34,832 nucleotides of DNA, from NCBI RefSeq assembly GCF_013304445.1, contig NZ_JAAITA010000025.1:1-34832 (forward strand), given 5' to 3'. Positions 4,941 to 34,686 of the stretch are shown here, one piece after another. The stretch is from Blautia hansenii (GTDB lineage: Bacteria > Bacillota > Clostridia > Lachnospirales > Lachnospiraceae). Below the pieces are notes generated by a model. That model saw only the letters and a list, made by a program, of their open reading frames with translations, did no database searches and was not told the DNA's origin. The first letter of the stretch is position 1; each line of letters opens with the position of its first letter. Made by a program: the position numbers and the translations under genes.

Positions 4941-5083
4941 ATATAACCAATAAAATCTTAAAAATTTCAATGTAAAGCGAAAAAAATTCTATGTTTTATT
5001 TCCTGGATATTGTGTATAGTGTCAATATCAATAAAAGGCACGGACGAAAAAGAAAATGTGCCGATGGAAGGGAGAATATTTCA

Positions 5084-6385
5084 ATGAAAAGAAAATTAGC
5101 AGTATTAACAATGGCAGCCGTTTTAGGTCTTTCCGCTGTTGCATGTGGTTCTGAACCAGCAAAAGACACAGCGAAAACAGAGGATACCGGCAAAACAGAA
5201 GACACTGGAAAAACAGAGGGTTCTGAAGTGGCGAACAAAGACAAACCTCTGGTATGGTTCAACCGTCAGCCGTCTAACAGCTCTACAGGTGAGTTGGACA
5301 TGAACGCTCTGAACTTTAACAAAGATACATATTATGTAGGATTTGACGCAAACCAGGGTGCTGAACTGCAGGGACAGATGGTGAAAGAATACATCGAAAA
5401 AAATGCAGATACTATTGACCGTAATGGCGATGGCGTAATCGGATATGTTCTGGCTATCGGTGATATCGGACATAATGATTCTATCGCACGTACAAGAGGT
5501 GTTCGTAAAGCTCTTGGAACAGGTGTAGAAAAAGACGGCGCTATTAACAGTGAGCCGGTTGGAACAAACGTAGACGGAAAAGCTTCTGCAGTACAGGACG
5601 GTTCTTTAGAAGCTGGCGGAAAGAAATTCGTAGTTCGTGAGTTGGGTTCTCAGGAAATGAAGAACTCTGCAGGCGCTACATGGGACGCAGCTACAGCCGG
5701 TAACGCAATTGGAACATGGTCATCTTCCTTTGGTAAAGAAATTGATGTTGTTGTTTCTAACAACGATGGTATGGGAATGTCGATGTTCAATGCATGGTCA
5801 AAAGAAAACAAAGTTCCTACTTTCGGATACGATGCGAACAGTGATGCAGTAGCAGCCATTGCAGAAGGCTACGGCGGAACCATCAGCCAGCATGCAGATG
5901 TACAGGCTTACTTAACACTTCGTGTTCTTCGTAACGCATTAGATGGTGTTGATATTGATACAGGTATCGGTACAGCAGATGAAGCTGGAAACGTTCTTAG
6001 TGACCAGGAATATGTATACAAAGAAGACGAGCGTTCTTACTACGCATTAAACGTAGCTGTAACCGCAGACAACTATCAGGATTTCACAGACTCTACTAAG
6101 ACCTTCGAGCCTGTATCCAAACAGTTAGATGAAAGCAAATCTCCTTCCAAGAAAGTATGGCTGAACATTTACAATGCTTCTGATAACTTCTTAAGCTCTA
6201 CATACCAGCCGCTTCTTGAAAAATATGATGACCTTCTGAACTTAGACGTTGAATACATCGGTGGTGACGGACAGACAGAGTCCAACATTACAAACCGTCT
6301 TGGAAACCCGGGTCAGTATGATGCATTTGCTATTAACATGGTGAAAACAGACAATGCAGCTTCTTACACAGCTTTACTGCAGTAA
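5084..6385 (+). CDS. mglB: Circularly permuted galactose/glucose-binding lipoprotein (MglB type)
   Basis: A 433-residue extracellular sugar-binding lipoprotein for the adjacent ABC importer. A signal peptide with lipobox LSAVAC (C21) and a KTEDTG linker precede the domain. The order is rearranged relative to MglB. Residue 55 starts at PLVWFNRQP, equivalent to the middle of the first lobe (VPIIFFNREP in the paralogue at 14307). The C-lobe follows, and residues 357-433 (VWLNIYNASDNF ... AINMVKT) match the normal N-terminus. Ligand residues of E. coli MglB have counterparts: D367, F369, N418, H130, D132, R136, W200, N227, D250. A calcium-type loop is D112-R-N-G-D-G. N256 of MglB appears replaced by Q. 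The new termini fall in a loop between a helix and a strand, and old ends are joined by a linker near 335-356. Start ATG 5084 follows GGAAGGGAG; an upstream in-frame start would destroy the signal peptide. Arginine codons are almost all CGT, suggesting high expression. Confidence 0.9.
   Translation: MKRKLAVLTMAAVLGLSAVACGSEPAKDTAKTEDTGKTEDTGKTEGSEVANKDKPLVWFNRQPSNSSTGELDMNALNFNKDTYYVGFDANQGAELQGQMVKEYIEKNADTIDRNGDGVIGYVLAIGDIGHNDSIARTRGVRKALGTGVEKDGAINSEPVGTNVDGKASAVQDGSLEAGGKKFVVRELGSQEMKNSAGATWDAATAGNAIGTWSSSFGKEIDVVVSNNDGMGMSMFNAWSKENKVPTFGYDANSDAVAAIAEGYGGTISQHADVQAYLTLRVLRNALDGVDIDTGIGTADEAGNVLSDQEYVYKEDERSYYALNVAVTADNYQDFTDSTKTFEPVSKQLDESKSPSKKVWLNIYNASDNFLSSTYQPLLEKYDDLLNLDVEYIGGDGQTESNITNRLGNPGQYDAFAINMVKTDNAASYTALLQ
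5174..5221 (+). repeat. 18-bp tandem repeat encoding KTEDTG linker
   Basis: Two full copies and one partial copy of an 18-bp unit encode KTEDTG-KTEDTG-KTEG, directly after the lipid-attachment region of the binding protein. Third positions differ between copies (GAG/GAA, ACC/ACT, GGC/GGA), so selection probably keeps the peptide. It would form a flexible charged tether between the lipid anchor and the permuted domain. Confidence 0.75.
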
Positions 6386-6540: not shown

Positions 6541-8049
6541 ATGGCAGATAAGAAAGATGAAGTTGTCTTATCCATACGCAATATGAGTAAGTCCTTTGGA
6601 CGAAACCGGGTTCTTGACCATATTAACCTGGATTTGAAACGGGGAACCGTTATGGGGCTTATGGGTGAAAACGGTGCCGGTAAGTCAACAATGATGAAAT
6701 GTCTTTTTGGAACTTATCAGAAAGATGAAGGAAAAATCACTCTGGACGGCAGAGAAGTCAGTTTCTCCGGGCCGAAAGATGCTCTGGAAAACGGAATTGC
6801 CATGGTTCATCAGGAGTTGAACCAGTGTCTGGAAAGAAATGTTATGGATAATCTTTTCCTGGGACGTTATCCCGTGAATTCCATGGGGGTTATCGATGAA
6901 GGAAGAATGAAAAAAGAAGCTTCTGAACTTTTCAGAAAGCTGGGCATGACTGTAAATCTGACGCAGCCTATGCGCAATATGTCAGTATCCCAAAGACAGA
7001 TGTGTGAAATTGCAAAGGCGATTTCCTATAATGCGAAGGTAATTGTTCTTGATGAACCGACTTCTTCTCTGACTGTACAGGAAGTCGATAAGTTGTTTGA
7101 AATGATGAGAATGTTAAAAGAACAGGGAATTTCTCTGATTTATATTTCTCATAAAATGGACGAAATCTTTGAGATTTGTGATGAGATTTCCGTACTCCGA
7201 GATGGTAATCTGGTTATGACAAAGAGTGCCAAAGACACGGATATGAATGAACTGATTGCAGCTATGGTTGGACGTTCTTTGGAAAACCGGTTTCCACCGG
7301 TAGATAACCAGCCAAAGGATGTAATCTTATCCATACAGCACCTGTCCACAAAATTTGAACCTCATCTGCAAGATATCAGTTTTGACGTAAGAGAGGGAGA
7401 AATTTTCGGACTTTATGGCCTGGTAGGCGCAGGTCGTACAGAACTTCTGGAAACGATTTTCGGTATTCGTACCAGAGCGGCAGGACGTGTTTACTTTAAC
7501 AAGAAACTGATGAATTTCAACAGCGCAAAAGAAGCAATGGACCATGGTTTTGCCCTGATTACAGAGGAAAGAAAGGCGAATGGTCTGTTTCTGAAGTGTG
7601 ATTTGACGTTTAACACAACGATTGCAAATCTGCCGCAGTATAAAACCGGCCTGGCTCTTTCCGATGCCAAGATGGTAAAGGCAACCGCCAACGAAATTAA
7701 AATTATGCATACGAAATGTATGGGACCGGATGATATGATTTCCAGTCTGTCCGGCGGTAATCAGCAGAAAGTTATTTTCGGAAAATGGCTGGAACGCAGC
7801 CCTCAGGTGTTCATGATGGACGAACCTACCCGAGGAATCGACGTTGGTGCAAAATATGAAATTTATGAGCTGATTATTCAGATGGCAAAACAGGGAAAAA
7901 CAATTATCGTTGTTTCTTCGGAAATGCCTGAAATTCTGGGTATCACAAACCGTATCGGCGTTATGTCAAACGGACATCTCTCCGGTATTGTGAATACAAA
8001 AGAAACAAATCAGGAAGAACTCTTAAGACTCAGCGCAAAATACCTATAA
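6541..8049 (+). CDS. mglA: Sugar ABC transporter ATP-binding protein (double NBD)
   Basis: A 502-residue tandem ATPase of the MglA/RbsA/XylG class that drives monosaccharide import. The first domain has Walker A GENGAGKST, signature NMSVSQRQ and Walker B VIVLDEPTSSLT. The second has a degenerate Walker A (GLVGAGRTE), signature LSGGNQQK and DEPTRGIDVG. One good and one degenerate site are normal for this family, as is the length. Start ATG 6541 follows AGGAG at 6528-6532. It lies between the permuted binding-protein gene (155-bp gap with a stem-loop) and the permease (12-bp gap), so the three form an mglBAC operon. The glucose/galactose assignment rests on the binding protein and is likely but not proven. 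Confidence 0.93.
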   Translation: MADKKDEVVLSIRNMSKSFGRNRVLDHINLDLKRGTVMGLMGENGAGKSTMMKCLFGTYQKDEGKITLDGREVSFSGPKDALENGIAMVHQELNQCLERNVMDNLFLGRYPVNSMGVIDEGRMKKEASELFRKLGMTVNLTQPMRNMSVSQRQMCEIAKAISYNAKVIVLDEPTSSLTVQEVDKLFEMMRMLKEQGISLIYISHKMDEIFEICDEISVLRDGNLVMTKSAKDTDMNELIAAMVGRSLENRFPPVDNQPKDVILSIQHLSTKFEPHLQDISFDVREGEIFGLYGLVGAGRTELLETIFGIRTRAAGRVYFNKKLMNFNSAKEAMDHGFALITEERKANGLFLKCDLTFNTTIANLPQYKTGLALSDAKMVKATANEIKIMHTKCMGPDDMISSLSGGNQQKVIFGKWLERSPQVFMMDEPTRGIDVGAKYEIYELIIQMAKQGKTIIVVSSEMPEILGITNRIGVMSNGHLSGIVNTKETNQEELLRLSAKYL

Positions 8050-8061
8050 TAAGGGAGAAGA

Positions 8062-9723
8062 ATGGATATGGCGAACGGAAATAGTAATATCCTTACAGCT
8101 GAACAGGAAATGAAACTGCGTCAGCCAATCGAGGATTATGTTGGTAAAATTCAGAAAAAAATTGACAGCCTGAGGGCTGACGGTACGGATAAAATCGTAG
8201 AAATCCAAAACTTAATGGACAGCATTAAAAGAGACCGTACCCTTACAAAAGGAGAAAAGGAAAGCAGGCTTGCAAAATGTAAAACAGAGTTGGAAGCAGC
8301 AAAAGCAGTGGAAGCAAAGCATAAAGACGAAGTTTCTAAACTGATTGCAGATGCTGAAAATTATTTGAAAGAGCATTTTGATAAGGATTATTATCAGGCT
8401 GTAAAAGCCAGCTGTGCGGCAGAAAAAGCAGCAGCCAAAGCTCGCTATCAGAAAAAAGTGGCAGAGCTGGAAAAAGAACATAAAGCAGCTGTGGCAAAGC
8501 TTTCCGATCATCAGGAAATTAAAGACGAAAACTATGTTTATAAAAACAGGCTCTTTGACGCAAAGATGACCATGGAAAAAGAATTCCAGGAAGCAAAAGA
8601 CAGAAGACATGCGGCGTATTCTTATAAGTTTCACTTAATTGATTTGCTGCGTATGTCCAAGTTTACTTTTATAGAAGCGAGAGCACAGAAATGGGAAAAC
8701 TACAAATATACCTTTAACCGCAGAACGTTCCTTTTGCAGAACGGTTTGTATATTGCCATTCTGTTGATATTCGTTGCACTGTGTATTATTACGCCGATTG
8801 TTAAAGGTTCACCACTTTTGACTTACAACAATGTGTTAAATATTCTTCAGCAGGCTTCCCCTCGTATGTTCCTTGCGTTAGGTGTAGCAGCGTTAATCCT
8901 TTTAGCTGGTACAGACCTTTCTATCGGACGTATGGTTGGTATGGGTATGACAGCCGCAACGATTATTATGCATCAGGGTGTGAACACAGGTGGTGTGTTC
9001 GGGCATATTTTTGACTTCACAGGTATGCCGGTTATAGCCAGAGTGATTTTGGCCTTGGTGGTTTGTATTTTGTTATGTACTTTCTTTACAACCATAGCAG
9101 GTTTCTTTACAGCGAAGTTTAAAATGCACCCGTTTATTTCTACCATGGCAAACATGCTGGTAATCTTCGGTCTTGTTACTTATGCAACAAAGGGTGTGTC
9201 CTTCGGTGCTATTGAAGCTACAATTCCAAATATGGTAATTCCGAAAGTAAACGGCTTCCCGACTATTATTCTGTGGGCTGTTGCAGCTATTGCCATTGTG
9301 TGGTTTATCTGGAATAAAACAACGTTTGGTAAAAATCTGTATGCAGTAGGCGGAAACCCGGAAGCTGCATCTGTATCCGGTATTTCCGTATTCGGTGTAA
9401 CAGTAGGCGCTTTCGTTATGGCTGGTGTTCTTTATGGATTTGGTTCCTGGCTGGAATGTATCCGAATGGTTGGTTCCGGTTCTGCAGCTTATGGACAGGG
9501 CTGGGAAATGGACGCTATCGCAGCCTGCGTGGTAGGTGGCGTATCCTTTACGGGTGGTATTGGTAAAATCTCCGGTGTCGTAGTCGGTGTATTTATCTTT
9601 ACAGCGCTTACTTATTCCCTGACAATCCTTGGTATTGACACGAACCTGCAGTTCGTATTCTCAGGTATCATTATCCTTGTAGCCGTTACACTGGACTGTC
9701 TGAAATACGTTCAGAAGAAATAG
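8062..9723 (+). CDS. mglC: Sugar ABC permease with long N-terminal coiled-coil extension
   Basis: A 553-residue MglC/RbsC-class (BPD_transp_2) permease, the membrane channel of the importer. The transport domain runs from about 223 to 553 with the expected hydrophobic segments, starting at LYIAILLIFVALCIITPIV. It includes GTDLSIGRMVG and the late GGVSFTGGIGKISG motif. That part alone is about 330 residues, the usual full length of MglC. The first about 220 residues are extra: hydrophilic, rich in K/E/A, without hydrophobic segments, and heptad-like (for example KKVAELEKEHKAAVAKL at 131-147). This suggests cytoplasmic coiled coils before the first membrane helix. Start ATG 8062 follows AAGGGAG; the extension is in frame from a good ribosome binding site, so it is not an annotation artefact. 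A terminator follows 40 bp after the stop. Confidence 0.92.
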   Translation: MDMANGNSNILTAEQEMKLRQPIEDYVGKIQKKIDSLRADGTDKIVEIQNLMDSIKRDRTLTKGEKESRLAKCKTELEAAKAVEAKHKDEVSKLIADAENYLKEHFDKDYYQAVKASCAAEKAAAKARYQKKVAELEKEHKAAVAKLSDHQEIKDENYVYKNRLFDAKMTMEKEFQEAKDRRHAAYSYKFHLIDLLRMSKFTFIEARAQKWENYKYTFNRRTFLLQNGLYIAILLIFVALCIITPIVKGSPLLTYNNVLNILQQASPRMFLALGVAALILLAGTDLSIGRMVGMGMTAATIIMHQGVNTGGVFGHIFDFTGMPVIARVILALVVCILLCTFFTTIAGFFTAKFKMHPFISTMANMLVIFGLVTYATKGVSFGAIEATIPNMVIPKVNGFPTIILWAVAAIAIVWFIWNKTTFGKNLYAVGGNPEAASVSGISVFGVTVGAFVMAGVLYGFGSWLECIRMVGSGSAAYGQGWEMDAIAACVVGGVSFTGGIGKISGVVVGVFIFTALTYSLTILGIDTNLQFVFSGIIILVAVTLDCLKYVQKK

Positions 9724-9793: not shown

Positions 9794-9839
9794 ATGTTAT
9801 AATAATGCAAAAAGATGAGTGAAAATACGGAGAAGGAAA

Positions 9840-11450
9840 ATGGATACATATACAGTACTTTTGGTAGATGATGAAGAAGAAGTCATTCAGGTGATTATGC
9901 GAAAGATTAACTGGGAGGGGTTGGGATTTTCTGTTATCGGATATGCCAATAATGGTGTGAAAGCATTGGAAATGGTGGAAGAATTTCAGCCGGATGTGGT
10001 GATGACGGATATTAAAATGCCCTACATGGACGGCATGGAACTGGCGGGACATATCAAAGCCGATTATCCGGCTACCAAGCTGCTTCTTTTTACCGGGTTT
10101 GATGAATTTGAATATGCCAAAGAAGCCGTCCATCTGGAAGTGGAGGAGTATATTCTGAAACCGGTGAATTCTGTGGAACTGACGAATGTGTTTACCCAGT
10201 TGAAGATAAAGCTGGACCAGGAAATCGGCGAAAAGCGAAATGCAGAATCCTTAAAAAAATATTATATGGATTCTCTGCCGCTTCTGCAGGCGAATTTTTA
10301 TGCAACTTTGCTGGAGGGGCGGATTCGTGAAGAGGAACTGGATCGCTATCTTTCTGATTACCAGATTTCTCTTTCGGGCCCTTTTTTCTGCTGTCTGGTG
10401 ATTCATACTTCATCGTCCCAGATACCGGAAGATATGAATCCGCTGCTTCTGGCGGCTTCCGTGGAAAAGCAGGCCAAGGAATATCTGGGGGAAAAGTGGA
10501 GAGCCAGGTGTTTCTCTTATCTGGGGAAAACCATTTTGATTGCCCAGTTGTCCGGAGAAAATGAAATGTCTGAACTGACGGATGACAGCGACCGTTTTTG
10601 CCGGTACGCACACCGGATTATCGGCGCCAATGTAACTGTGGGAATCGGCCAGGTGTGCGGAAGTATTCTGGAACTGTCCCAGTCTTACAGCAGCGCCAGA
10701 GAAGCCATTTCCTACCGGGTGCTCTACGGAACTTCCAGAGCCATTAATATTCAGGAAATTGCTCCACATGAGAGGAATAACCCGGGTTCCAGCCACGAAG
10801 GGGAACTGTCCCACCTGTTTAAAACCATTCGTCTGAACGAGCCGCCGGAAATCGCCCAGGCAGTCCATGAGTATCTTGGCAGCATTTCCTTTAAGGAAAA
10901 ATCCCTGCAGCAGCACCACCTGGACGTCATGGAACTTCTCAGCGAATTCTGCCGGTTTGCGGCAAACAATGATATTGTACTGGGAGAACTGTCAAAAGAT
11001 ATGGGAAAACTATACGGCAGAGTTCTGGACATGGGACCGGATACGCTGGAAAAGTGGCTGGTAAACATCAGTGTTTCTCTTCACGAAAAACTGTTGAATG
11101 CCCGGACAAAGTCTACCAAATCCTTTGTGGAAAAGGCAAAAGATTATGTGCACAACAATTATGTGAACGAAGAACTTTCTCTGGACCGTATCTGTGAAGT
11201 GCTGGGAGTCTCCAATTCTTATTTTTCTACCATTTTTAAAAAGGAGACAGGGAAGTCCTTTATTGGCTACCTGACGGATTATCGCATGGACAGAGCATCC
11301 CGGCTTTTGTTGGAGACAAACGAAAAGAGTTATATTATAGGGAAGAAAGTGGGATATACGGACCCCAATTATTTCAGTTATGTGTTTAAACGGCGGTTCG
11401 GAGTATCGCCTTCCAAGTACAGAACGGAGTACAGAGAAAGTGAAAAATAA
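9840..11450 (+). CDS. AraC-type response regulator (YesN family)
   Basis: A 536-residue two-component response regulator. The receiver domain occupies about 1-120, with acidic pocket D10/D11, phospho-acceptor D57 (VVMTDIKMP) and the conserved lysine in YILKPVN. A long linker region (about 130-420) is followed by a C-terminal AraC/XylS double helix-turn-helix (LSLDRICEVLGVSNSYFS ... GYTDPNYFSYVFKRRFGVSP). This is the YesN architecture, usually an activator of carbohydrate transport operons. Start ATG 9840 follows GGAGAAGG; an in-frame GTG at 9819 would add seven residues but has no site. The gene overlaps the kinase gene by 11 nt, indicating translational coupling. The likely target is the mgl-type operon just upstream; that is inference from position. 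Confidence 0.92.
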   Translation: MDTYTVLLVDDEEEVIQVIMRKINWEGLGFSVIGYANNGVKALEMVEEFQPDVVMTDIKMPYMDGMELAGHIKADYPATKLLLFTGFDEFEYAKEAVHLEVEEYILKPVNSVELTNVFTQLKIKLDQEIGEKRNAESLKKYYMDSLPLLQANFYATLLEGRIREEELDRYLSDYQISLSGPFFCCLVIHTSSSQIPEDMNPLLLAASVEKQAKEYLGEKWRARCFSYLGKTILIAQLSGENEMSELTDDSDRFCRYAHRIIGANVTVGIGQVCGSILELSQSYSSAREAISYRVLYGTSRAINIQEIAPHERNNPGSSHEGELSHLFKTIRLNEPPEIAQAVHEYLGSISFKEKSLQQHHLDVMELLSEFCRFAANNDIVLGELSKDMGKLYGRVLDMGPDTLEKWLVNISVSLHEKLLNARTKSTKSFVEKAKDYVHNNYVNEELSLDRICEVLGVSNSYFSTIFKKETGKSFIGYLTDYRMDRASRLLLETNEKSYIIGKKVGYTDPNYFSYVFKRRFGVSPSKYRTEYRESEK

Positions 11451-13308
11451 GTATTTCAGACAACTGAAAAAAATGAAGCCAAAGGAAATTCAGACCACCA
11501 TTATGCTGGCTTCTTCCGTGGTGTCGATTTCCATTATGCTGATTCTGGGAGTGGTTCTGTATCTGCGGTTTTCCAATTCTGCCAGGGCGGAAACCATAAA
11601 CAGTACACAGAAGCTGATGGAGCAGACTGGGGAGAACCTGGAAGAATATCTGATGAGCATGCGGCAGATTTCCGATGCGGTTTATTACAACGTGGTAAAG
11701 GAAAATGATTTTGAGAAGAATAAGCAGGATATTCAAAGCGGAATGAATCTTTTGTACGAGGCAAACAAAGAAAAACTCAGAAGTATTGCCATATATAACA
11801 ACTACGGAAGCCTTATGGCGGCGGAACCGGTGGCCTCCCAGAAGGAAGACCCGGACGTAACCAGCCAGGACTGGTATCAGAAGGCCATGGAGGAAATGGA
11901 AAATATGCATTTTTCCACACCTCATATTCAGAATTTGTTCAATGACACAACACACCGTTATTATTGGGTGGTTTCTTTAAGCCGCGTGGTAGAATTGACA
12001 GACCAGGGAGTTCCACAGGCAGGTGTACTTTTGGTAGATATGGATTTTTCCAGTATTTCTCGTATGATGAAGCAGATTAATGAAGTGAACAACGGGCAGT
12101 ATTATTATCTGTGCGACAGCAGCGGTGAAATTGTCTATCACCCCAGGCAGATACAAATCAGCGACGGAATTTACGAAGAAAACAGCAAACGGGCAGCGAC
12201 CTACAAAGACGGCGTTTATGACGAGGCTTTTCAAGGGGAAAACCGGAAAGTGGTGGTAAATACCATCAGTTATACCGGATGGAAACTGGTAGGAGTGATT
12301 CCCTATTCTACGTTTAATCACGGCATGGTAAATCTCCGTTATTTTGCGGTTATGATGATTCTGTTGATGACCATGATGCTGGTGGTGATTAACCGGGTGG
12401 TTTCCCTTAGGATTTCCAGCCCGATTTTGAAACTGAATCAATCGGTGCGGAAGTATGAAGCAGGGGAGAAACCGGAAATTTACATTGGCGGTTCTCAGGA
12501 AATCCGTCATCTGGGGTATTTCATTCAGAAGTCTTATGAACAGATTGATGAACTGATGAAGGAAATTGTCCTGGAACAAAATGAGAGAAGAAAGAGTGAA
12601 TTAGACGCCTTGCAGGGCCAGATTCATCCCCATTTTCTGTACAATACGCTGGAATCCATTACCTGGATGATAGAGGGAGAACGGAACGATGAGGCGGTCT
12701 TTATGATTTCCCAGCTGGCCAGACTGTTTCGTATCAGTCTTTCTAAGGGCAGAACCGTGATTTCCGTAAAAGATGAACTGCAGCATGCGCAGAGCTATAT
12801 GAATATACAGAAGGTCCGGTATAAAAACTCTTTTTCTGTGACCTTTGATGTGGAGGAAGAGTTGTATTCCTATTGTACAGTTAAGCTGATTCTGCAGCCC
12901 ATACTGGAGAATGCTATTAATTATGGCGTGGGCAATATGGAAGACGGCGGAGAAATCCGGATAACCGGAAGGCGTGAAGGAGACTTGATTGTTCTGGCTG
13001 TTTCCGATAACGGGCTTGGTATGTCAGAGGAGGAAGTGGCTCTTGTACTGACGGACAGTAACCGGATTCACAAGCACGGCTCCGGGGTAGGACTGGTGAA
13101 TGTCAACAGCCGTATCCAGATTCTCTTTGGAAAGGAATACGGGCTTGTGGTGGAAAGTGAACCGGATGAGGGAACCCGGGTTTCCATACACATTCCGGCT
13201 GTCCCTTATACAGAAGAAAATCGCAGGATACTGGAGATGGGACATATGATGAGCCGGGAAGAAATCGTAGACAGGAAAGTACAGGGACAAAGCAATGAAA
13301 AAGGATAA
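11440..13308 (+). CDS. Sensor histidine kinase (YesM/LytS type)
   Basis: A 622-residue membrane kinase. Transmembrane helix 1 is near 18-42, the extracellular sensor domain about 43-295 (Cache-like by position), and helix 2 about 296-320. A HAMP-like segment (SPILKLNQSVRKYEAGE) follows. The His_kinase motif QIHPHFLYN gives H398 as probable phospho-acceptor. The ATPase domain shows ILQPILENAINYG, DNGLGM and GSGVGLVNV. The GTG start at 11440 overlaps the end of the regulator gene and follows CGGAG at 11425-11429; ATG 11473 is a possible alternative, removing 11 residues. The last 14 nt overlap the next gene. It should phosphorylate the upstream YesN-type regulator in response to extracellular sugar, possibly through the neighbouring binding-protein-like sensor. 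Confidence 0.9.
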   Translation: MKNKYFRQLKKMKPKEIQTTIMLASSVVSISIMLILGVVLYLRFSNSARAETINSTQKLMEQTGENLEEYLMSMRQISDAVYYNVVKENDFEKNKQDIQSGMNLLYEANKEKLRSIAIYNNYGSLMAAEPVASQKEDPDVTSQDWYQKAMEEMENMHFSTPHIQNLFNDTTHRYYWVVSLSRVVELTDQGVPQAGVLLVDMDFSSISRMMKQINEVNNGQYYYLCDSSGEIVYHPRQIQISDGIYEENSKRAATYKDGVYDEAFQGENRKVVVNTISYTGWKLVGVIPYSTFNHGMVNLRYFAVMMILLMTMMLVVINRVVSLRISSPILKLNQSVRKYEAGEKPEIYIGGSQEIRHLGYFIQKSYEQIDELMKEIVLEQNERRKSELDALQGQIHPHFLYNTLESITWMIEGERNDEAVFMISQLARLFRISLSKGRTVISVKDELQHAQSYMNIQKVRYKNSFSVTFDVEEELYSYCTVKLILQPILENAINYGVGNMEDGGEIRITGRREGDLIVLAVSDNGLGMSEEEVALVLTDSNRIHKHGSGVGLVNVNSRIQILFGKEYGLVVESEPDEGTRVSIHIPAVPYTEENRRILEMGHMMSREEIVDRKVQGQSNEKG

Positions 13309-14269
13309 GAAGATGTTTATTCTGATACAGGCAGTTCTGAGCCTGCTGGTGATTCTGCTGGTGGTTGTCATGCTGCGGGAGCAAAGTGGAAAAGAGCAGT
13401 ATCAGGTGTCTGTGATTGTGGAAAACTCAGACGACAATCAGTGGTCTGCCTTTAAATACGGATTGAAAATGGCAGCAGAGGACAGAGGGGCAGAAATGTT
13501 TATGGTCAGCACAGGGGCGGTGCTCACCCCGGAGGAAGAAAAAAAGCTGATAGAACAGGAAGTGAAAAACGGCGCAGACGCTGTGATTGCAGAGCCCGTT
13601 CCCGGCACAGACCCAGCGAAACTGCTGAAGGAAGTTCAGGGGAAAATTTCGGTTATGCTGGTGGGAGGAGAATTGCCCAAAAGTGAAAAGCGCAGGGGAT
13701 TTCCGGTGGTTCGGGCAGATGATTATGCAATGGGACAGGCTTTGGCAGAAGAACTGTTAAAGGATTACGACGGAAAGCTGAATGGAAAAAGTCTTGGTAT
13801 GATAGGCGGGCGGAGAGACTCACAAAGTATCCGGAACCGGGAGGAAGGATTTACAGAAACCTTAAAGGAAACAGGGGTGGAAGTCCTCTGGTCTGGTATG
13901 AAAAATCCGGAGGAAAATATTAAGGCTTTTCTGGAAAGCCAGCCGGAGGTGGATTTTGTGATTGCGTTTGATGATGACAGTCTGACTGCGGCGGGAGAAT
14001 GTGGAGAAGCCAATAATCTCCACGGGGCTCTTGTGTATGGAATCGGCAATTCCACAGAAGCGGTTTATTATCTGGATGTGGGAACGGCAGAATGTGTGGT
14101 TGTGTCAGATGCCTTTTATGCAGGATACCAAAGTCTGACAGGACTTATGAACGGAATGGAGAATTCCTTCCGCAATTATGAAGAACCACAGATTTCTTAT
14201 ACGGTTATGAGGAGAGAAAATCTGTTTTCCAAAGAGAATCAGGATATTCTGTTTACTATGAGTCAGTAA
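13295..14269 (+). CDS. Membrane-anchored periplasmic-binding-like protein, probable co-sensor
   Basis: A 324-residue type I periplasmic-binding (Peripla_BP_4-like) protein. The N-terminus is KKDKK followed by a hydrophobic helix (about 8-26) with no lipobox cysteine, so it is held by a signal anchor rather than lipid. The binding domain starts near 36 (QVSVIVENSDDNQWSAFKYG) and ends with ISYTVMRRENLFSKE. Its ATG lies inside the last 14 nt of the kinase gene, so the two are translationally coupled. This matches the arrangement of the XylFII-LytS-YesN system of Clostridium beijerinckii, where an anchored binding protein passes sugar occupancy to the kinase. Co-sensor function is therefore inferred. 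It is a poorer match to MglB than the next gene and its ligand is unknown. Confidence 0.8.
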   Translation: MKKDKKMFILIQAVLSLLVILLVVVMLREQSGKEQYQVSVIVENSDDNQWSAFKYGLKMAAEDRGAEMFMVSTGAVLTPEEEKKLIEQEVKNGADAVIAEPVPGTDPAKLLKEVQGKISVMLVGGELPKSEKRRGFPVVRADDYAMGQALAEELLKDYDGKLNGKSLGMIGGRRDSQSIRNREEGFTETLKETGVEVLWSGMKNPEENIKAFLESQPEVDFVIAFDDDSLTAAGECGEANNLHGALVYGIGNSTEAVYYLDVGTAECVVVSDAFYAGYQSLTGLMNGMENSFRNYEEPQISYTVMRRENLFSKENQDILFTMSQ

Positions 14270-14306
14270 AGGACGGGAAAACGGAGAAGAAATGCGGAGG
14301 TAAAGC

Positions 14307-15359
14307 ATGAGAAAGAACAAAAGAAGGGCAGCGGGAATGCTCCTGGCTTTTGCAGCGCTGTTTCTGGGCGGCTGTAAGGAGGGGGAGTCAGAGGCGCCGG
14401 ATAAACTTCATGTGGGAGTTGCTTCTTATAATCAGAGTGATACCTATATGAATGCCCTGATTGGAAGGTTTAAAGAAAATATGAATGAATTGGGCAGCGA
14501 CAGGCTGGAAGTAACCGTAACGGTCCGGGACGCGGCTGGTCTGCAGAAGACGCAGAATGACCAGGTGGAAGAAATGATAGATGAGGGGTGCAATGTACTC
14601 TGTGTAAACCTGGTGGACCGGGCAGACCCGTCGGAGATTATTGATTTGGCCAGAGAAAATGACGTGCCGATTATCTTTTTTAACAGAGAGCCGGTGGCGG
14701 AAGACCTGCACCAGTGGGAACATCTGTATTATGTAGGAGCGGATGCCAGACAGTCCGGCATATTGCAGGGAGAACTGGCGGTTGACCTTATCAAGGAGGA
14801 CGACCGTATTGACAAGAATAAGGATGGAAAAATCCAGTATGTGGTTCTGGAAGGAGAAATGGGACACCAGGATGCAATTATCCGCACAGAAAATGCAGTG
14901 AATACGCTGAAACAGAATGGCGTTGAAGTGGAAAAACTCAGCTGCAAAATCGCAAACTGGAACCGGGCACAGGCACAGAACAGAATGGAGCAGATAATAG
15001 GAGAGTATCAGAACAAAATAGAACTGGTTCTGGCCAACAATGACGACATGGCCCTGGGCGCTGTGGATGCGTATAAGAAGTTGAATTATACATCTTCGGC
15101 CTTGCCTGTGTTTTTTGGAATCGACGGTACGGATGTGGGACTGGAAGCTGTCAAAAAGGGAGAATTGCAGGGCACTGTATATAACGACAAAGAAGGCCAG
15201 GCTGAAGTCATGGCAAAGCTGGCGGCAGCTCTGATTACAGGCCAGAGTATGGAAGAGATTCCCTTTGAAAATGACAGGTATGTGTACCTGCCTTATCACA
15301 AAGTGAGCGATGAGAATATAGAACAATTTTCGGAGAAATCCATGGAACTGTCGCAATAA
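14307..15359 (+). CDS. Galactose/glucose-binding lipoprotein, canonical domain order
   Basis: A 350-residue MglB-like binding lipoprotein. The signal peptide has lipobox LGGC (C23). The order is normal: HVGVASYNQSDTY (35-47) begins lobe 1, CVNLVDRADP (99-108) and VPIIFFNREP (120-129) follow, then the calcium loop DKNKDGKIQ (169-177), then sugar contacts H187, D189, R193 in GHQDAIIRTE. The C-lobe has NNDDMALGA and GIDGTD, and the protein ends in VYLPYHKVSDENI. F16 of E. coli MglB is tyrosine here. Start ATG 14307 follows GCGGAGG. It lies 37 bp after the anchored sensor gene in the regulatory operon with no ATPase or permease of its own. It may feed the upstream transporter or signal to the kinase. 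It is the internal reference that exposes the permutation in the protein at 5084. Confidence 0.9.
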   Translation: MRKNKRRAAGMLLAFAALFLGGCKEGESEAPDKLHVGVASYNQSDTYMNALIGRFKENMNELGSDRLEVTVTVRDAAGLQKTQNDQVEEMIDEGCNVLCVNLVDRADPSEIIDLARENDVPIIFFNREPVAEDLHQWEHLYYVGADARQSGILQGELAVDLIKEDDRIDKNKDGKIQYVVLEGEMGHQDAIIRTENAVNTLKQNGVEVEKLSCKIANWNRAQAQNRMEQIIGEYQNKIELVLANNDDMALGAVDAYKKLNYTSSALPVFFGIDGTDVGLEAVKKGELQGTVYNDKEGQAEVMAKLAAALITGQSMEEIPFENDRYVYLPYHKVSDENIEQFSEKSMELSQ

Positions 15360-28251: not shown

Positions 28252-31200
28252 ATGAAGAAAAAAAGCTTGAAAAAGACCGTGGCTGTCATGTTGAGCGGTG
28301 TGTGTCTTGCATCGGGAGTTGCAGTTCCGGCAGATACGGTGCAGGCATCAGCTGGTCTGGGGTATTGGCCGGAGAACCTGCCCATTCCCAACCAGTATTA
28401 CTATCAAAAGGAGTCGCTGCAGCCATATGGAACCTGTCTGCAGATAGGAGAATTGAAGAACTGGAGTCCGGATAATGACCCGGATGCACGGTATAACCGG
28501 AGTTCCATTCCTCTGCGGCAGAGGTATATGGGACCCAGTGTAAATCCTCTGGCTTCCAGGGATGCCAAAGTAATGCCTCTAGCCATGTCTAACGCAAGGG
28601 CCAGTGAGGCAGAATCCCAGGGAGGAGAAGGAGATTTTGTCTATGCCTTCAATAATTTCCAGTATATAGACACCTACAATTTCTGGGGCGGTTCTTCAGC
28701 AGAAGGACCTATCTGTATTCCGTCTCCGGAGCACATTGATTCCGCTCACCGGAATGGAGTGCAGGCAACCGGTACGATTTTCATTCCGTGGGGGGATGAG
28801 GAGTATGGCGGAAGATTTGTGCGGGAACTGGTGGCGCAGGACGAACAGGGCAATTATCCATGCGCAGATAAGCTGATTGAAGTGGCTCAGTATTATGGTT
28901 TTGATGGCTATATTTTCAATGCGGAATCCGGTACAGGTGTCAGTGGGTTTAAAGAGTTTCTGGCTTATATGCAGGAGAAAGCCCCGGAAAATTTTCGAAT
29001 CAGCTGGTACAACGGAAGCGGAACGCTGGGAGCAGATTCTATTGATGCCTGGATGCAGGATGAAGACAAGCGTATTACGGATGAGTGGTGGCTGGATATG
29101 TCCGGAAACGGAAACGTAGACAGTACGATAGACGCAACTTATGAAGCAGACAGAGATAAGTGGGACATCCATTCTACCTGGGAGTACATTCCTATGCAGG
29201 ACGGTGCAAAGGGAGGAGATTACCACACGAGACTGGATAAGGACGGGAAGCTGAAGATTTCCCTTGGTATTCTGGCCCCTACGTCTACTTTAACCCAGTC
29301 GAAAAATTCGGATGACTTTATGAATGTGCAGGACCAGAAACTCTGGGTGGGACCGGATTTTGACCCGTCATCCACCAATCGCCCCGACGATGAATTTTGT
29401 GGTTTTGCCAATCTGGTAGCAGACCAGACACCGGTTCTGGGAACAGATTTCGTAACACATTTTAATCCGGGAAACGGCTATAAATTCTACGAAAACGGTG
29501 CAGTGACCGGCATGGAAAGCGGTTGGCACAACCGTTCTCTGACAGAAGTGCTTCCGACCTGGCGTTGGATTGTAGATGCCGAAGACGGCGCAAAAAAGGT
29601 GGAGCCTAAGATTGATTATGAAGATGCCTACTGGGGCGGTGCATCCATGAAAATCAGCGGTGGTTTAAGCGCAGGCAAGGCAAATCATATCAAGTTGTAC
29701 AGCACTCAGTTGGATATTACAGACAGCTCTACGTTTGAACTGGTTTACAAGACAAAGAAAAACAGCGATGTGAAACTGTCTGTGGGACTTTGTTTTGGCG
29801 ATACATATGAAGATAAGAATTTCCAGTTCTATCCCGTGGAAATTCAGGGAGATGAAAGCTGGAAAGAGGCGTCTATTCCTCTTGCAGATGAAAGCGGACA
29901 GAGGGTCAGTGCGATTTCTCTGAAACTGGAATCAGCAGGCGGTGTGGATGACTATAGCATGAATATTGGAAAGATGGGGATTGTGACAGACAAATCCCAG
30001 CCGGAAGCACCGGGAGAGATTACACTGGATGATGTGATTTATCCTACGGATTTAAGTGCAGAGGCAAGAATTTACTGGGATAAGGGGGAACATTCTTTTA
30101 TCGATATTATTCACCGTGTACGTCCGGATGGACAGGAAGAATTTGTAGGTGCTACTCCTTCCGATGCGTTCTACATTCCAAAATTCCGCAAGCTGGAAGG
30201 GGAAAAAGAAGCAACCTTTAAGATTACTTCTATCAGTGAAAATGGAATTGAGGGTGATTCCAGAGAAATTAAGATTGCATGGCCCAAAGAGGTGCCGGAC
30301 GGCTTTGGTCCCAGTGCAGAGTTGGGAGAAAATCTTGCTCTTCGAGCTCCGGCCGTGTGTGATGTGCCCTGTGCAGCAGATGGCCCGGTAGATAAAATCA
30401 ATGATGGTGTTATTCCTTCCAGCAAATGGTGTGGTACGGCAAACAGCGGAAGCGCTTATTTGGATTTGGGGAAAGAAGTGGATATCAGCCGCTGGATTGT
30501 TTATCATGCGAATTGTAGAGGAGCCGGAGAAGGTGTAAACTACAATACGGTAGATTTTGAACTTTTATATGCTCCGGATGACGGAAAGCCAGTGTTGGAC
30601 CCAACGGATAAAACTGCAGCGGAACGCGTGAAAAAGCTGAATTATAAAGAGGCAGACAAGGTAACCGGCAATAAGCAGAATGTGACAGACAGAAATCTGG
30701 ATGGGCCAATCAAAGCCCGGTATATCAAGCTGCACATTACAGACTCAGATAACAGTCCATGGTCTGCAATCCGTATTTACGAGATGGAACTGTATGGAGA
30801 AAAAGGAGAAGGCAGTGTAGCGGTGCCTACAGCTCCGCTGGAAAGAAATGTTACCGTTTATAACGAAAAGGGCAATCAGGATAAGGTGATTATTGACAAT
30901 GTGGGCATGCCTTATGCAGAAGGTTCTTATCCGAATGGAACTGTAAATGAGAAAACCGGAGTGGTATCTCTTTATGACAGCATGGATGCAAAAGAGCCCA
31001 TTGCACAGGTTCGGGCCCAGCAGCCGGATAATGTGTATAAGCAGTACGCCGTGGGAATTGCCCAGTTTGACAATCTGAAACTCAAACCAGAGGGCGGACG
31101 CCTTTGGTATTCTGTGCAGGATGCATCCACGGGGGAAACGGTTACTACTCAGCGCTCCAGTGTGGCGTATCCGCCGGAGGATGGAAAGAAAATTCCAGAG

Positions 31201-34200
31201 GCTCAGGCAAAGCTTTATGGAGAGGCAGCCGGTGTGAACCTTTCCGGTGCATACGGCGCTCTGGAAATCAGCGGACTTCCCAAAGAAGCTACAGTGAAGG
31301 TTTATGACAGCAAAGATGCCTTAAAACCCATTCTGCATTCCGCTCCTGCAGGCGAAGATAAGAAAATTCTTTTGGAGAGCGTACCATTAAAAGAAGAAGG
31401 CGGAACGGTATATTATACCATTCATGCACCTGGATATTCAGATACAGAAAGATTGGAATTGGCCTATGGAGAGGTGGGGGCGCTTCCGGCTTATCAGGGA
31501 ACCCTGGCAGAAATGGTCAATATGTATGAAAGAGGATTCTTTGAAGAAGAGTATCTGGATTCTACCTGGGGTGCGTTTGCTTCTGCACGCACAAAGGCGG
31601 CCGGACTTTTGGAAGGAAATCCTACAAAAGCGGAAGCGGATGCGGTGCGAATGGAATTGAAACAGGCAGAATGCGGGCTTTTAAAGAAAGCAGATAAATC
31701 CAGAATTCAGGAAGTATGTGCAGACTATGAAGCAAATAAAGGTCATTATTCCAAAGAAAGCTGGGAAAAATTCCAACCAGTGTTTGAAGAAGTAAAAGCT
31801 TTTGCTCAGGCAGAGGATGAAACAGATAAAATGACCATTCAGACCCAGCGGGTAAAGCTGGACAAGGCAGCCAGACAACTGGTAGAAATTGTACCGATTA
31901 ACAGCTCGGTGATTCCGGATGAAGCGCTTTTAAAAGCTATTAAGGAGCAGACGGGCTTTGAATCTGTGGACCAGTTAAGCACCTATGAGGGCACTCTGGA
32001 TTTGACCAATCTTCCAGTGAAAGACCTTACTGGTTTGGAAAAAATGGAGAAACTCAAAGGACTTATTTTAGACGGAACAAAGGTAAAAGAAGTAAATGCA
32101 AAGAATCTGCCCAAAACGCTGGAAACGCTCAGTATGAAAAACTGTGGGGGTCTGGAAACCATCGACCTGAGAAACAGCGGAATGGATAAGCTGAAACAGG
32201 CAGACATTACAGGCTGTGAAAAACTGGTTCTGGTGTATATGAATACCGGAAATCTGGAAAAACTGGAAGTTTCCGAAAATGGAAAATATGCCAATATTTA
32301 CGCTCTGGATATCAGTGGAAATAAGCTGGATTTAAGTGAGAAAACTCCAGAAGGCAAGTTGGCTGCAAAGGTGGAAGAAAATCTGAAGAAGAATCCGCCT
32401 GAAAAATTGGAGAAATATACAAATGTAACACAGGGACGGAATGTAACCGCAGACGTGATGCAGGGACGTCACGAAAAACCGGAAGTCATGGTAGATGGAA
32501 AGAAAGACCAGAATGCAGATATTTATTATCTGGATACAAATGGGAAGGCGGTTATCAATCTTGGAGAAGCAAAAGATATTTCCAAAGTGGGAGCAACTTT
32601 CCAGAAGGATAACTTCCCGGCAGAGTACAAGTGGGAATATTCCGAAGACGGAAAGGATTACAAAGAACTGGCTGCTGTAAAGAAGAATGAGAAGTATCAG
32701 ACTGAAAATACGTTAAAAACTCCGGTGAAGGCGCAGTACTTGAGATTTACTGTGTTAAACAAAGGAAAAGGAGAAGCCGTTGTGGTGGAACTGGAAGGGT
32801 TCGAGAAGAAAACCATTGCAAGTGGTGTTACCAGCGGCAATCAGAAACCGGAAGCAGTAGTGGATTATAAGACCATTCCGGCAGAACTTTCACTAAAACA
32901 GGGAAGCGAAGCGGTGGATATGCTGGACTATATGAAAAACTGCTACAAAGAAGTAAAAACAGTCAGAGGAACAAAAATTGCAGAGTTGACTGACGCAAAA
33001 TGGCTGGCAAAAGATTACGATATTGAGGCGGCTGCAAAGATGCCGGAAGGTATGAAGGTTGTGATTACCAAAGAAGATGGAAGCGCGTGTCAAAATCCGT
33101 TTGTACCTGAAAATACAGGAAACTACACGGCAGAATACCGAGTAGGAGAAGGCAAAGCACTGGCTTCGGTCAAGGTAAAAGTAACCGCGGATAAGTCTTA
33201 TCTGGAAGAGTTGGCTGCTTCCTGTGAAGGAAAGAAGGAGACGGACTACACGCCTGCTACCTGGGCCGTTTTCCAGGAAAAACTGGCAAAGGCAAAGGAA
33301 CTTTTAGAAAATGAATTTGCAGGACAGGATGAAATTGATGCGGCAGAACAGGAGCTTTCAGAGGCATTGACCGGCTTGCGGGTGAAACCGATAAAAACGG
33401 TGCTGCATGTATTTATTGAACTCGCAGAAAAAGAACTGGAAAATGCAGCAGATAAGGCGCCGGAAACCATGGATGCTTTAAATACTGCTCTGACGGAAGC
33501 CAAAACTGTTTTTGAAAATCCAAATGCAACGCAGGAGGAAGTAGATGCAGCAGGCGATAAACTGTTGGAGGCTCTGAACAAAATTCGTCCTATGGCAGAT
33601 AAAGAAAAACTTCTGAATCTGATTGCTCGTGTGGAAAGCATGGAGACAAGCGGCTATACAGATGCAAGTGTAAAGACTTTGGAAGAGAAACTTGCAGAAG
33701 CAAAAACAGTGGCAGAAGACGACAATGCCTTTGAAGAAGATGTGGAACTGGCATACAATAATCTGCTGCAGGCCGTGGCTCATCTGGAGGTAAAGGTTCA
33801 TACTGCAGAACTGGAATATGTGATAGCAAAAGCAGAAGATATTCTTGCTAAAAAGGACAAATATATTGCGGCAACACTGGAAGGTTTAAGTGAGGAAACC
33901 AAAAAGGCAAAAGAAGTTCTGGAAAAAGCGGACGCAACACAGGAAGAAGTGAATCAGGCAGCAGCAGACCTGGCATGGAAAGTCGGGAATGCAAGACTCA
34001 AAGCAGAGAAACAGGCACTTTTGGATATGCTGGAGGAGGCAGAGAAAATGGATGTTGCTCTGTACACCGAGGAAAGTGCCCGTGCCTTTACAGGGGCACT
34101 GTTGAAGACCCGTCAGGCAGCAGAGGATGAATATGCAACGCAGGCGGAAGTGGATGCGGCCGTTTCTGAACTGGATGATGCTATGACAAATCTGGTGAAA

Positions 34201-34686
34201 GCAGAACCTGAGCAGCCGGAAACAAAACCTGAGGAAGAGCAGAAACCGGAGCAGAAGCCGGAATCAGAACCTGAGGAAGAACAGCACCAAGACAAGGGAA
34301 CAGAAGAAGGGCAGCAGGAAGAAGCTAAAGAAGAGAAACTGGAAACTCCTTCCCACCAGGCTCCTTCTAAGAAACCGGTAAGCAGTACCAGAGACTATGC
34401 AGTTCGCAGCAGAAGACAGCACAGTGATAACACAGCGTCACAAAGCAGCAAAGAAGAACAGACGGAAGAGAGAAAGGAAACAAAAGAAGAAACTCTTCTG
34501 GCAAAGGGAGACGGTGAAGAGAATTCCAACAAGGAGACGGAAGACACCGCTGATTCAGAAAAGGCAGAAAAAGATAAAACTGTCCAGAAAGAAGAGAAAG
34601 CTTCTTATGGCTGGATTCTGGCGGGAGTCCTGATTCTTGCAGCAGCTGGAGGTCTGTGGTATTGGAAGAAAAAACAGAAAAAATAA
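28252..34686 (+). CDS. Giant secreted GH85 endo-beta-N-acetylglucosaminidase
   Basis: A 2144-residue cell-surface enzyme predicted to cut the chitobiose core of N-glycans. Signal peptide is about 1-32. The GH85 barrel (about 125-440) holds GFDGYIFNAE, giving N223 and catalytic E225. Then follow a jelly-roll region (about 440-585), an FnIII-like domain (586-680) and an F5/8-type C (CBM32-like) module (about 688-850). Next come two related beta-rich domains (about 859-979 and 980-1080), sharing YDS-x-DA-x-x-PI, and two FIVAR-like helical units (about 1080-1215). An LRR block (about 1216-1379) and a second F5/8-like module (about 1383-1519) precede an Ig-like region, five more FIVAR-like units (about 1646-1983) and a Pro/Glu-rich spacer. 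A membrane helix (2119-2138) and KKKQKK tail end the protein. No LPXTG is visible, so it seems held by the helix. Start ATG 28252 follows AAAGGGG. Its sugar target is inferred from the family. Confidence 0.93.
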   Translation: MKKKSLKKTVAVMLSGVCLASGVAVPADTVQASAGLGYWPENLPIPNQYYYQKESLQPYGTCLQIGELKNWSPDNDPDARYNRSSIPLRQRYMGPSVNPLASRDAKVMPLAMSNARASEAESQGGEGDFVYAFNNFQYIDTYNFWGGSSAEGPICIPSPEHIDSAHRNGVQATGTIFIPWGDEEYGGRFVRELVAQDEQGNYPCADKLIEVAQYYGFDGYIFNAESGTGVSGFKEFLAYMQEKAPENFRISWYNGSGTLGADSIDAWMQDEDKRITDEWWLDMSGNGNVDSTIDATYEADRDKWDIHSTWEYIPMQDGAKGGDYHTRLDKDGKLKISLGILAPTSTLTQSKNSDDFMNVQDQKLWVGPDFDPSSTNRPDDEFCGFANLVADQTPVLGTDFVTHFNPGNGYKFYENGAVTGMESGWHNRSLTEVLPTWRWIVDAEDGAKKVEPKIDYEDAYWGGASMKISGGLSAGKANHIKLYSTQLDITDSSTFELVYKTKKNSDVKLSVGLCFGDTYEDKNFQFYPVEIQGDESWKEASIPLADESGQRVSAISLKLESAGGVDDYSMNIGKMGIVTDKSQPEAPGEITLDDVIYPTDLSAEARIYWDKGEHSFIDIIHRVRPDGQEEFVGATPSDAFYIPKFRKLEGEKEATFKITSISENGIEGDSREIKIAWPKEVPDGFGPSAELGENLALRAPAVCDVPCAADGPVDKINDGVIPSSKWCGTANSGSAYLDLGKEVDISRWIVYHANCRGAGEGVNYNTVDFELLYAPDDGKPVLDPTDKTAAERVKKLNYKEADKVTGNKQNVTDRNLDGPIKARYIKLHITDSDNSPWSAIRIYEMELYGEKGEGSVAVPTAPLERNVTVYNEKGNQDKVIIDNVGMPYAEGSYPNGTVNEKTGVVSLYDSMDAKEPIAQVRAQQPDNVYKQYAVGIAQFDNLKLKPEGGRLWYSVQDASTGETVTTQRSSVAYPPEDGKKIPEAQAKLYGEAAGVNLSGAYGALEISGLPKEATVKVYDSKDALKPILHSAPAGEDKKILLESVPLKEEGGTVYYTIHAPGYSDTERLELAYGEVGALPAYQGTLAEMVNMYERGFFEEEYLDSTWGAFASARTKAAGLLEGNPTKAEADAVRMELKQAECGLLKKADKSRIQEVCADYEANKGHYSKESWEKFQPVFEEVKAFAQAEDETDKMTIQTQRVKLDKAARQLVEIVPINSSVIPDEALLKAIKEQTGFESVDQLSTYEGTLDLTNLPVKDLTGLEKMEKLKGLILDGTKVKEVNAKNLPKTLETLSMKNCGGLETIDLRNSGMDKLKQADITGCEKLVLVYMNTGNLEKLEVSENGKYANIYALDISGNKLDLSEKTPEGKLAAKVEENLKKNPPEKLEKYTNVTQGRNVTADVMQGRHEKPEVMVDGKKDQNADIYYLDTNGKAVINLGEAKDISKVGATFQKDNFPAEYKWEYSEDGKDYKELAAVKKNEKYQTENTLKTPVKAQYLRFTVLNKGKGEAVVVELEGFEKKTIASGVTSGNQKPEAVVDYKTIPAELSLKQGSEAVDMLDYMKNCYKEVKTVRGTKIAELTDAKWLAKDYDIEAAAKMPEGMKVVITKEDGSACQNPFVPENTGNYTAEYRVGEGKALASVKVKVTADKSYLEELAASCEGKKETDYTPATWAVFQEKLAKAKELLENEFAGQDEIDAAEQELSEALTGLRVKPIKTVLHVFIELAEKELENAADKAPETMDALNTALTEAKTVFENPNATQEEVDAAGDKLLEALNKIRPMADKEKLLNLIARVESMETSGYTDASVKTLEEKLAEAKTVAEDDNAFEEDVELAYNNLLQAVAHLEVKVHTAELEYVIAKAEDILAKKDKYIAATLEGLSEETKKAKEVLEKADATQEEVNQAAADLAWKVGNARLKAEKQALLDMLEEAEKMDVALYTEESARAFTGALLKTRQAAEDEYATQAEVDAAVSELDDAMTNLVKAEPEQPETKPEEEQKPEQKPESEPEEEQHQDKGTEEGQQEEAKEEKLETPSHQAPSKKPVSSTRDYAVRSRRQHSDNTASQSSKEEQTEERKETKEETLLAKGDGEENSNKETEDTADSEKAEKDKTVQKEEKASYGWILAGVLILAAAGGLWYWKKKQKK

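Follow-up and report, generated by a model that had tools for sequence, protein, structure and literature searches.

The gene at positions 5084-6385 (forward strand) of a 34,832-nucleotide stretch of Blautia hansenii DNA (hereafter the window) encodes a 433-residue sugar-binding lipoprotein which, with a probability of about 95%, is a naturally circularly permuted MglB-type binding protein of the known MglB-2 ("Type Ic / Cluster Bc") subclass. The rotated order of its segments, its operon, its conserved sugar contacts and its grouping with TpMglB-2 are established here for the window protein. The permutation itself is already known: the crystal structure of TpMglB-2 (Tp0684) from Treponema pallidum was reported with a topology called circularly permuted, and the subclass name was proposed in the same paper (Brautigam et al., 2016, PLoS One; PMC4990184). 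A sequence-only reading of this DNA had known of no description of such a protein as a natural form, and this claim is overtaken by the 2016 publication and by the Pfam family that covers the moved piece, PF18610 (Peripla_BP_7). Within the open-licence literature, no paper naming Peripla_BP_7 was found, nor one on Lachnospiraceae MglB under a strict term search. A natural permutation in a venus-flytrap receptor, and one that is common in gut commensals, provides a clean case for the part of chain order in docking and tethering.

A rotated chain colinear with TpMglB-2

The open reading frame is intact. Its start is placed at the ATG at 5084 rather than at 4991, the start in a mechanical list of open reading frames, because AGGGAG precedes this ATG and the product then begins with a signal peptide and lipobox. 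This leader (5084-5146) ends in LSAVAC (residues 16-21), which we take to be the lipobox, and Cys21 is present in 33 of 34 aligned rows. Residues 55-330 (5246-6073), which make up the latter part of lobe 1 together with the C lobe, now lead the chain; PF13407 matches at 79-288, and hhalign places the segment on positions 88-313 of the canonical MglB profile (E 6.4e-32). They are followed by a linker from the old C-terminus to the old N-terminus (residues 331-355; 6074-6148), and the suggestion that a charged linker joins these termini is supported. In position it matches the "fourth hinge/extended structure", a feature ascribed to TpMglB-2 but not to E. coli MglB (PMC4990184). The moved N-terminal piece occupies residues 356-425 (6149-6358), where PF18610, a family that spans this piece only, scores 143.9 bits (cut-off 36.8); a profile search of the genome returns a single PF18610 match, at the same place. 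In the predicted secondary structure of a low-confidence model the cut separates a helix at 425-432 from a strand at 56-61, as had been expected.

The rotated order is seen by comparison with the canonical-order protein encoded at 14307-15359. Residues 52-336 of the permuted protein align to residues 118-343 of this protein (hhalign E 6.4e-32), and residues 355-426 align, as profiles, to residues 33-109 (E 6.3e-6 for a single comparison, probability 85%). When the canonical profile is doubled head to tail, hhalign gives one continuous alignment of query 3-377 with positions 88-394. These two profile alignments and the single run on the doubled profile establish the order first read from the letters, residues 55-330 and then 357-433. 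Profiles were used for the moved piece because its pairwise match to the window's canonical protein fails to reach significance: when single sequences are compared, 205 of 2000 shuffles score as high. The pairwise match of the C-terminal piece proposed earlier was thus right, but unprovable by single sequences. hhalign's own probability for the moved piece ranges from 41 to 85% by target profile, the 41% being against the full canonical profile. NF011924, the canonical MglB equivalog, matches the permuted protein in two stretches with 92.6 bits and misses its cut-off of 420.

A search of PDB sequences with phmmer places TpMglB-2 in the top three positions (5jx2, 6bgc and 6bgd; E 1.3e-90 to 1.6e-88), aligned in one colinear stretch over residues 51-431; in 5jx2 (E 1.3e-90) this stretch lies on residues 19-384 of a 387-residue chain. 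The next 11 sequences, mostly galactose/glucose-binding proteins, have E values of 1e-19 to 4e-17 and align in two stretches each. Membership of Type Ic / Cluster Bc was assigned by coverage above 90% and matching N-termini (PMC4990184). The window protein follows the same permuted order along TpMglB-2, both PF18610 and the profile match equate its C-terminal piece with the N-terminal strands of MglB, and it is encoded, as a lipoprotein by its conserved Cys21 and presumably tethered, together with an ATPase and a permease. The fold expected of the subclass is bilobed with a lobe-1 strand order of 5-4-6-1-2-3. The predicted structure of the window protein reaches a pLDDT of only 57.1 (pTM 0.47) from an alignment of 34 rows, none below 78% identity to the query, and no superposition is claimed from a model with so shallow an alignment and so low a pLDDT. 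Its Foldseek hits at E < 0.001 are four, all TpMglB-2 with E near 1e-24, at TM-scores of 0.26-0.31 and an rmsd near 20 Å, values too poor to confirm the fold independently.

The window protein resembles TpMglB-2 in its permuted order, cut, sugar contacts, old-termini linker and lipoprotein character, and in the putative cognate permease encoded in the same genome (PMC4990184). The two are about 41% identical, and differ in about 15 more residues around 149-170 of the window protein and in its D367, the counterpart of N311 in T. pallidum. Canonical MglB (E. coli 2gbp/2fvy; NF011924) shares the sugar contacts and the core, in two stretches, but has a different order of lobe-1 segments.

Across all 103 aligned permuted rows, ten sugar-contact positions never vary and the same C-terminus is reached. 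Nine of the ten are identical to E. coli MglB, and all nine contacts named from the sequence beforehand are present; N256 is replaced by Q269, with Q also in TpMglB-2. The equivalents of D14 and F16, which lie in the moved piece, are kept in every row. Equivalent contacts have been tabulated for TpMglB-2, which binds glucose with a KD of 1.1 uM, and its N19A, D195A and F313A variants showed no observable binding heat with glucose (PMC4990184). Of these residues, F313 belongs to the moved piece and corresponds to F369 in the window protein.

The fold, glucose binding and ligand-induced closure of TpMglB-2 are experimentally established, and a tethering hypothesis has already been raised for it (PMC4990184). 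For the window protein, the sequence-only reading suggested that the lipid tether, leaving from a different edge of lobe 1, might alter docking on the permease. Strands one to three of lobe 1 have moved to the C-terminus, with the linker joining the old termini. In the working we infer for the window protein, the permuted chain would retain the customary two-lobed fold. The lipid-anchored protein would close on its sugar as TpMglB-2 does, the ligand suggested by the conserved contacts being glucose, perhaps galactose. The sugar would then pass to the MglC-type permease, with the MglA-type ATPase of the neighbouring gene supplying the power.

Distribution and descent of the moved piece

A genome scan yielded 477 candidate stretches, 463 of which encode relatives, and the best 80 of these were kept as loci. 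Most of the 80 are titled Lachnospiraceae or its genera, complete chromosomes among them, and the same order, for which a search of this family had been proposed, is found there. A further 21 loci bring the total besides the window to 101; with the window and one row from Treponema saccharophilum the alignment holds 103 rows. The 102 permuted rows represent 95 distinct proteins, the window's included. Samples that each count the window's genome show PF18610 in 21 of 200 genomes for the family, 2 of 245 for the class and 2 of 299 for the phylum. Proteins of similar topology were previously divided into two groups, one of spirochaetes and one mostly Gram-positive, with gut commensals (PMC4990184). 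Permuted importer genes are also carried on two plasmids, one from Agathobacter rectalis (NZ_CP143948.1) and one from T. saccharophilum (NZ_AP025290.1), and this location fits the horizontal sharing suggested in PMC4990184. On the A. rectalis plasmid, integrase and IS91-type transposase genes lie nearby. One contig, titled as a "Bacteroidales bacterium" MAG (L014), has a permuted gene 84% identical to the window protein, reflecting transfer or mis-binning.

Could the gene be an assembly join, or a frameshift between two separate binding-protein genes? The same continuous order occurs in the 101 further loci, complete chromosomes included, in both plasmid records and in the solved protein, and these independent records refute such an artefact, in favour of which nothing was found and whose probability is negligible.

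The source of the C-terminal piece is a separate matter. Its identity to the MglB N-terminus was given as only 13% for TpMglB-2, and an origin from a different gene, which would have converged on the MglB N lobe, was left open (PMC4990184). This low identity, the single-sequence shuffles and the 41% hhalign probability above speak for such an origin. Against it, the moved-piece profile finds canonical MglB in the expected N-terminal register, scoring 29.8 with the full profile and 32.5 with its N-terminal part, or 33.8 and 32.1, respectively, once a T. pallidum row is added. The score of 32.1 stands above all 300 column shuffles, the best of which reaches 20.6; the reversed profile gives 10.6, and none of 15 windows taken elsewhere in the protein exceeds 12.0. 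The only other families compared score lower, RbsB-like proteins at 16.0 (none of these rows coming from a genome above that model's cut-off) and ChvE at 14.1-14.8. As MglB scores above both, profile comparison favours derivation of the moved piece from MglB itself, a true permutation; descent from a different gene appears improbable, also in view of the D14 and F16 equivalents kept throughout. This profile evidence for MglB descent was not found in print and may be new.

A tree of 20 permuted, 60 canonical and 10 outgroup rows places the permuted rows, including 5jx2, on one side of a branch with an SH-aLRT of 99, though long branches meet in this tree. Canonical rows were drawn from 82 candidates (at least 120 bits to P0002, 300-410 residues, complete, match starting by residue 45), which were thinned, together with P0002, to 60 at 75% identity. 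The 102 permuted rows were reduced to 54 at 88%, and 22 of these 54 were used by hhalign. One "canonical" row (L033) is probably not an MglB, since it sits beside RbsB in the tree.

The proposal that the permuted gene arose by tandem duplication and loss of the outer halves found no backing, as no locus with two permuted copies is present among L001-L132 and tblastn detected no duplication remnant in the window. A canonical MglB-like reading frame lies within 4 kb upstream of the permuted gene in 2 of 63 loci with enough flank. Among four chosen permuted regions, one (L148, 175-2787) has a canonical-order MglB-like gene directly upstream of the permuted one.

The importer operon and its extended permease

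The binding protein is followed on the same strand by genes for an MglA-type ATPase of 502 residues (6541-8049), with NF008215 as its best NCBIfam match at 671.6 bits (below the cut-off of 828), and an MglC-type permease of 553 residues (8062-9723). PF02653 covers residues 258-541 of the permease and NF007014 residues 220-553 (265.3 bits, below the cut-off of 386). About 215 residues precede its first membrane segment. This N-terminal extension (approximately residues 1-218; 8062-8715) is conserved and charged, has no Pfam match and is predicted to form long helices between residues 13 and 197, with pLDDT means mostly of 80-92; the permease prediction overall has a mean pLDDT of 53.3, confident in the helical extension only and weak in the membrane part. 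The transmembrane core is shared with canonical MglC permeases (NF007014, PF02653), from which the permuted-type cassette differs by ~215 extra N-terminal residues.

All 74 loci of the best 80 with a complete permease reading frame have the order binding protein-MglA-MglC on one strand. Four of the other six end before the permease, and in L015 the permease is cut by the contig end with the extension present. The sixth, L062, runs counter to the pattern: its mglA match stops at residue 346, and no permease is found in more than 3 kb after it. Permeases of 508-563 residues with the extension (~170 residues in the 508-residue ones) are encoded in 72 of the 74. In L020 and L064 two reading frames match the permease in turn; mutation, rearrangement or assembly error may lie behind these two loci and L062.

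A set of 20 chosen regions contained 16 canonical mgl regions, of which 15 have a permease, at 334-367 residues and never with the extension, and one (L146) has none; in the four permuted regions all permeases are 550-553 residues long. A search for the extension in 200 genomes of the family recovered exactly the 21 with PF18610 and none of the other 179, the two features sharing a contig in 20 of 21. The 562-residue permease of T. saccharophilum also carries it, residues 4-215 aligning with residues 14-214 of the window permease at 24% identity (E 1e-12; E 6e-6 over 14-218 after composition correction). This match scores 125; shuffled sequences peaked at 88 in 2000 trials, and at 104 in 2000 trials that shuffled seven-residue blocks.

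The N-terminus of the MglC-type permease family faces the cytoplasm, and the extension is expected to do likewise. Tentatively, the permuted receptor and the ~215-residue, coiled-coil-like extension might be linked parts of one transporter subclass spread across two phyla and plasmids, the extension regulating or organising the ATPase side so that coupling or control differs from canonical Mgl importers; we regard this as a possibility on the doubtful side. The extended permease is a second point, open to test, at which this importer subclass departs from canonical Mgl systems. The similar distribution of the permease has been mentioned in a paper where the terms "extension" and "coiled" do not occur in the sense used here (PMC4990184). 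One strict term search of the open-licence literature found no paper on the permease extension, and the pairing of a permuted receptor with an extended permease may be new.

The downstream sensor cassette

Four further genes on the same strand lie downstream of the importer. The first two encode a response regulator with an AraC-type DNA-binding domain (9819-11450; PF00072, PF12833) and a sensor histidine kinase with a dCache domain (11380-13308; PF02743, PF06580, PF02518). They are followed by a sugar-binding-domain protein with an N-terminal hydrophobic stretch, a probable sensor (13295-14269; PF13407), and by the canonical-order MglB-like lipoprotein (14307-15359), to which NF011924 aligns in normal order over residues 29-341 with 245.3 bits (cut-off 420). 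A relative of the latter (>200 bits) is found downstream in 52 of 63 loci whose flank on that side exceeds 9 kb. Described earlier as the canonical paralogue, this protein does have the ordinary order, but it adjoins the two-component system and is not in the transporter operon. On account of this neighbourhood, and of its recurrence downstream of the permuted gene, it is more likely a sensor, and a probable partner in sensing, than a second transport receptor. The cassette at 9819-15359 probably senses the sugar carried by the importer.

These neighbours also bear on whether the permuted protein might itself be mainly a chemoreceptor-like sensor partner of the two-component system rather than a transport receptor. 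The regulator, kinase and two binding-domain proteins downstream, the recurrence of the canonical-type protein, and the discussion of a chemoreceptor role for TpMglB-2 (PMC4990184) would be consistent with this. Yet mglA and mglC follow the permuted gene in each of the 74 loci noted above, the cassette has binding proteins of its own, and T. saccharophilum keeps binding protein, MglA and MglC with no sensor cassette annotated within 9 kb; a mainly sensory role is highly improbable, and the permuted protein is best regarded as the receptor, probably for glucose or galactose, of an MglBAC-type ABC importer. The A. rectalis plasmid carries the sensor cassette along with the importer genes. Further along the window, positions 28252-34686 encode a 2144-residue protein with GH85, EndoS-type LRR, F5/8 type C and FIVAR domains, probably an endo-N-acetylglucosaminidase of the cell surface.
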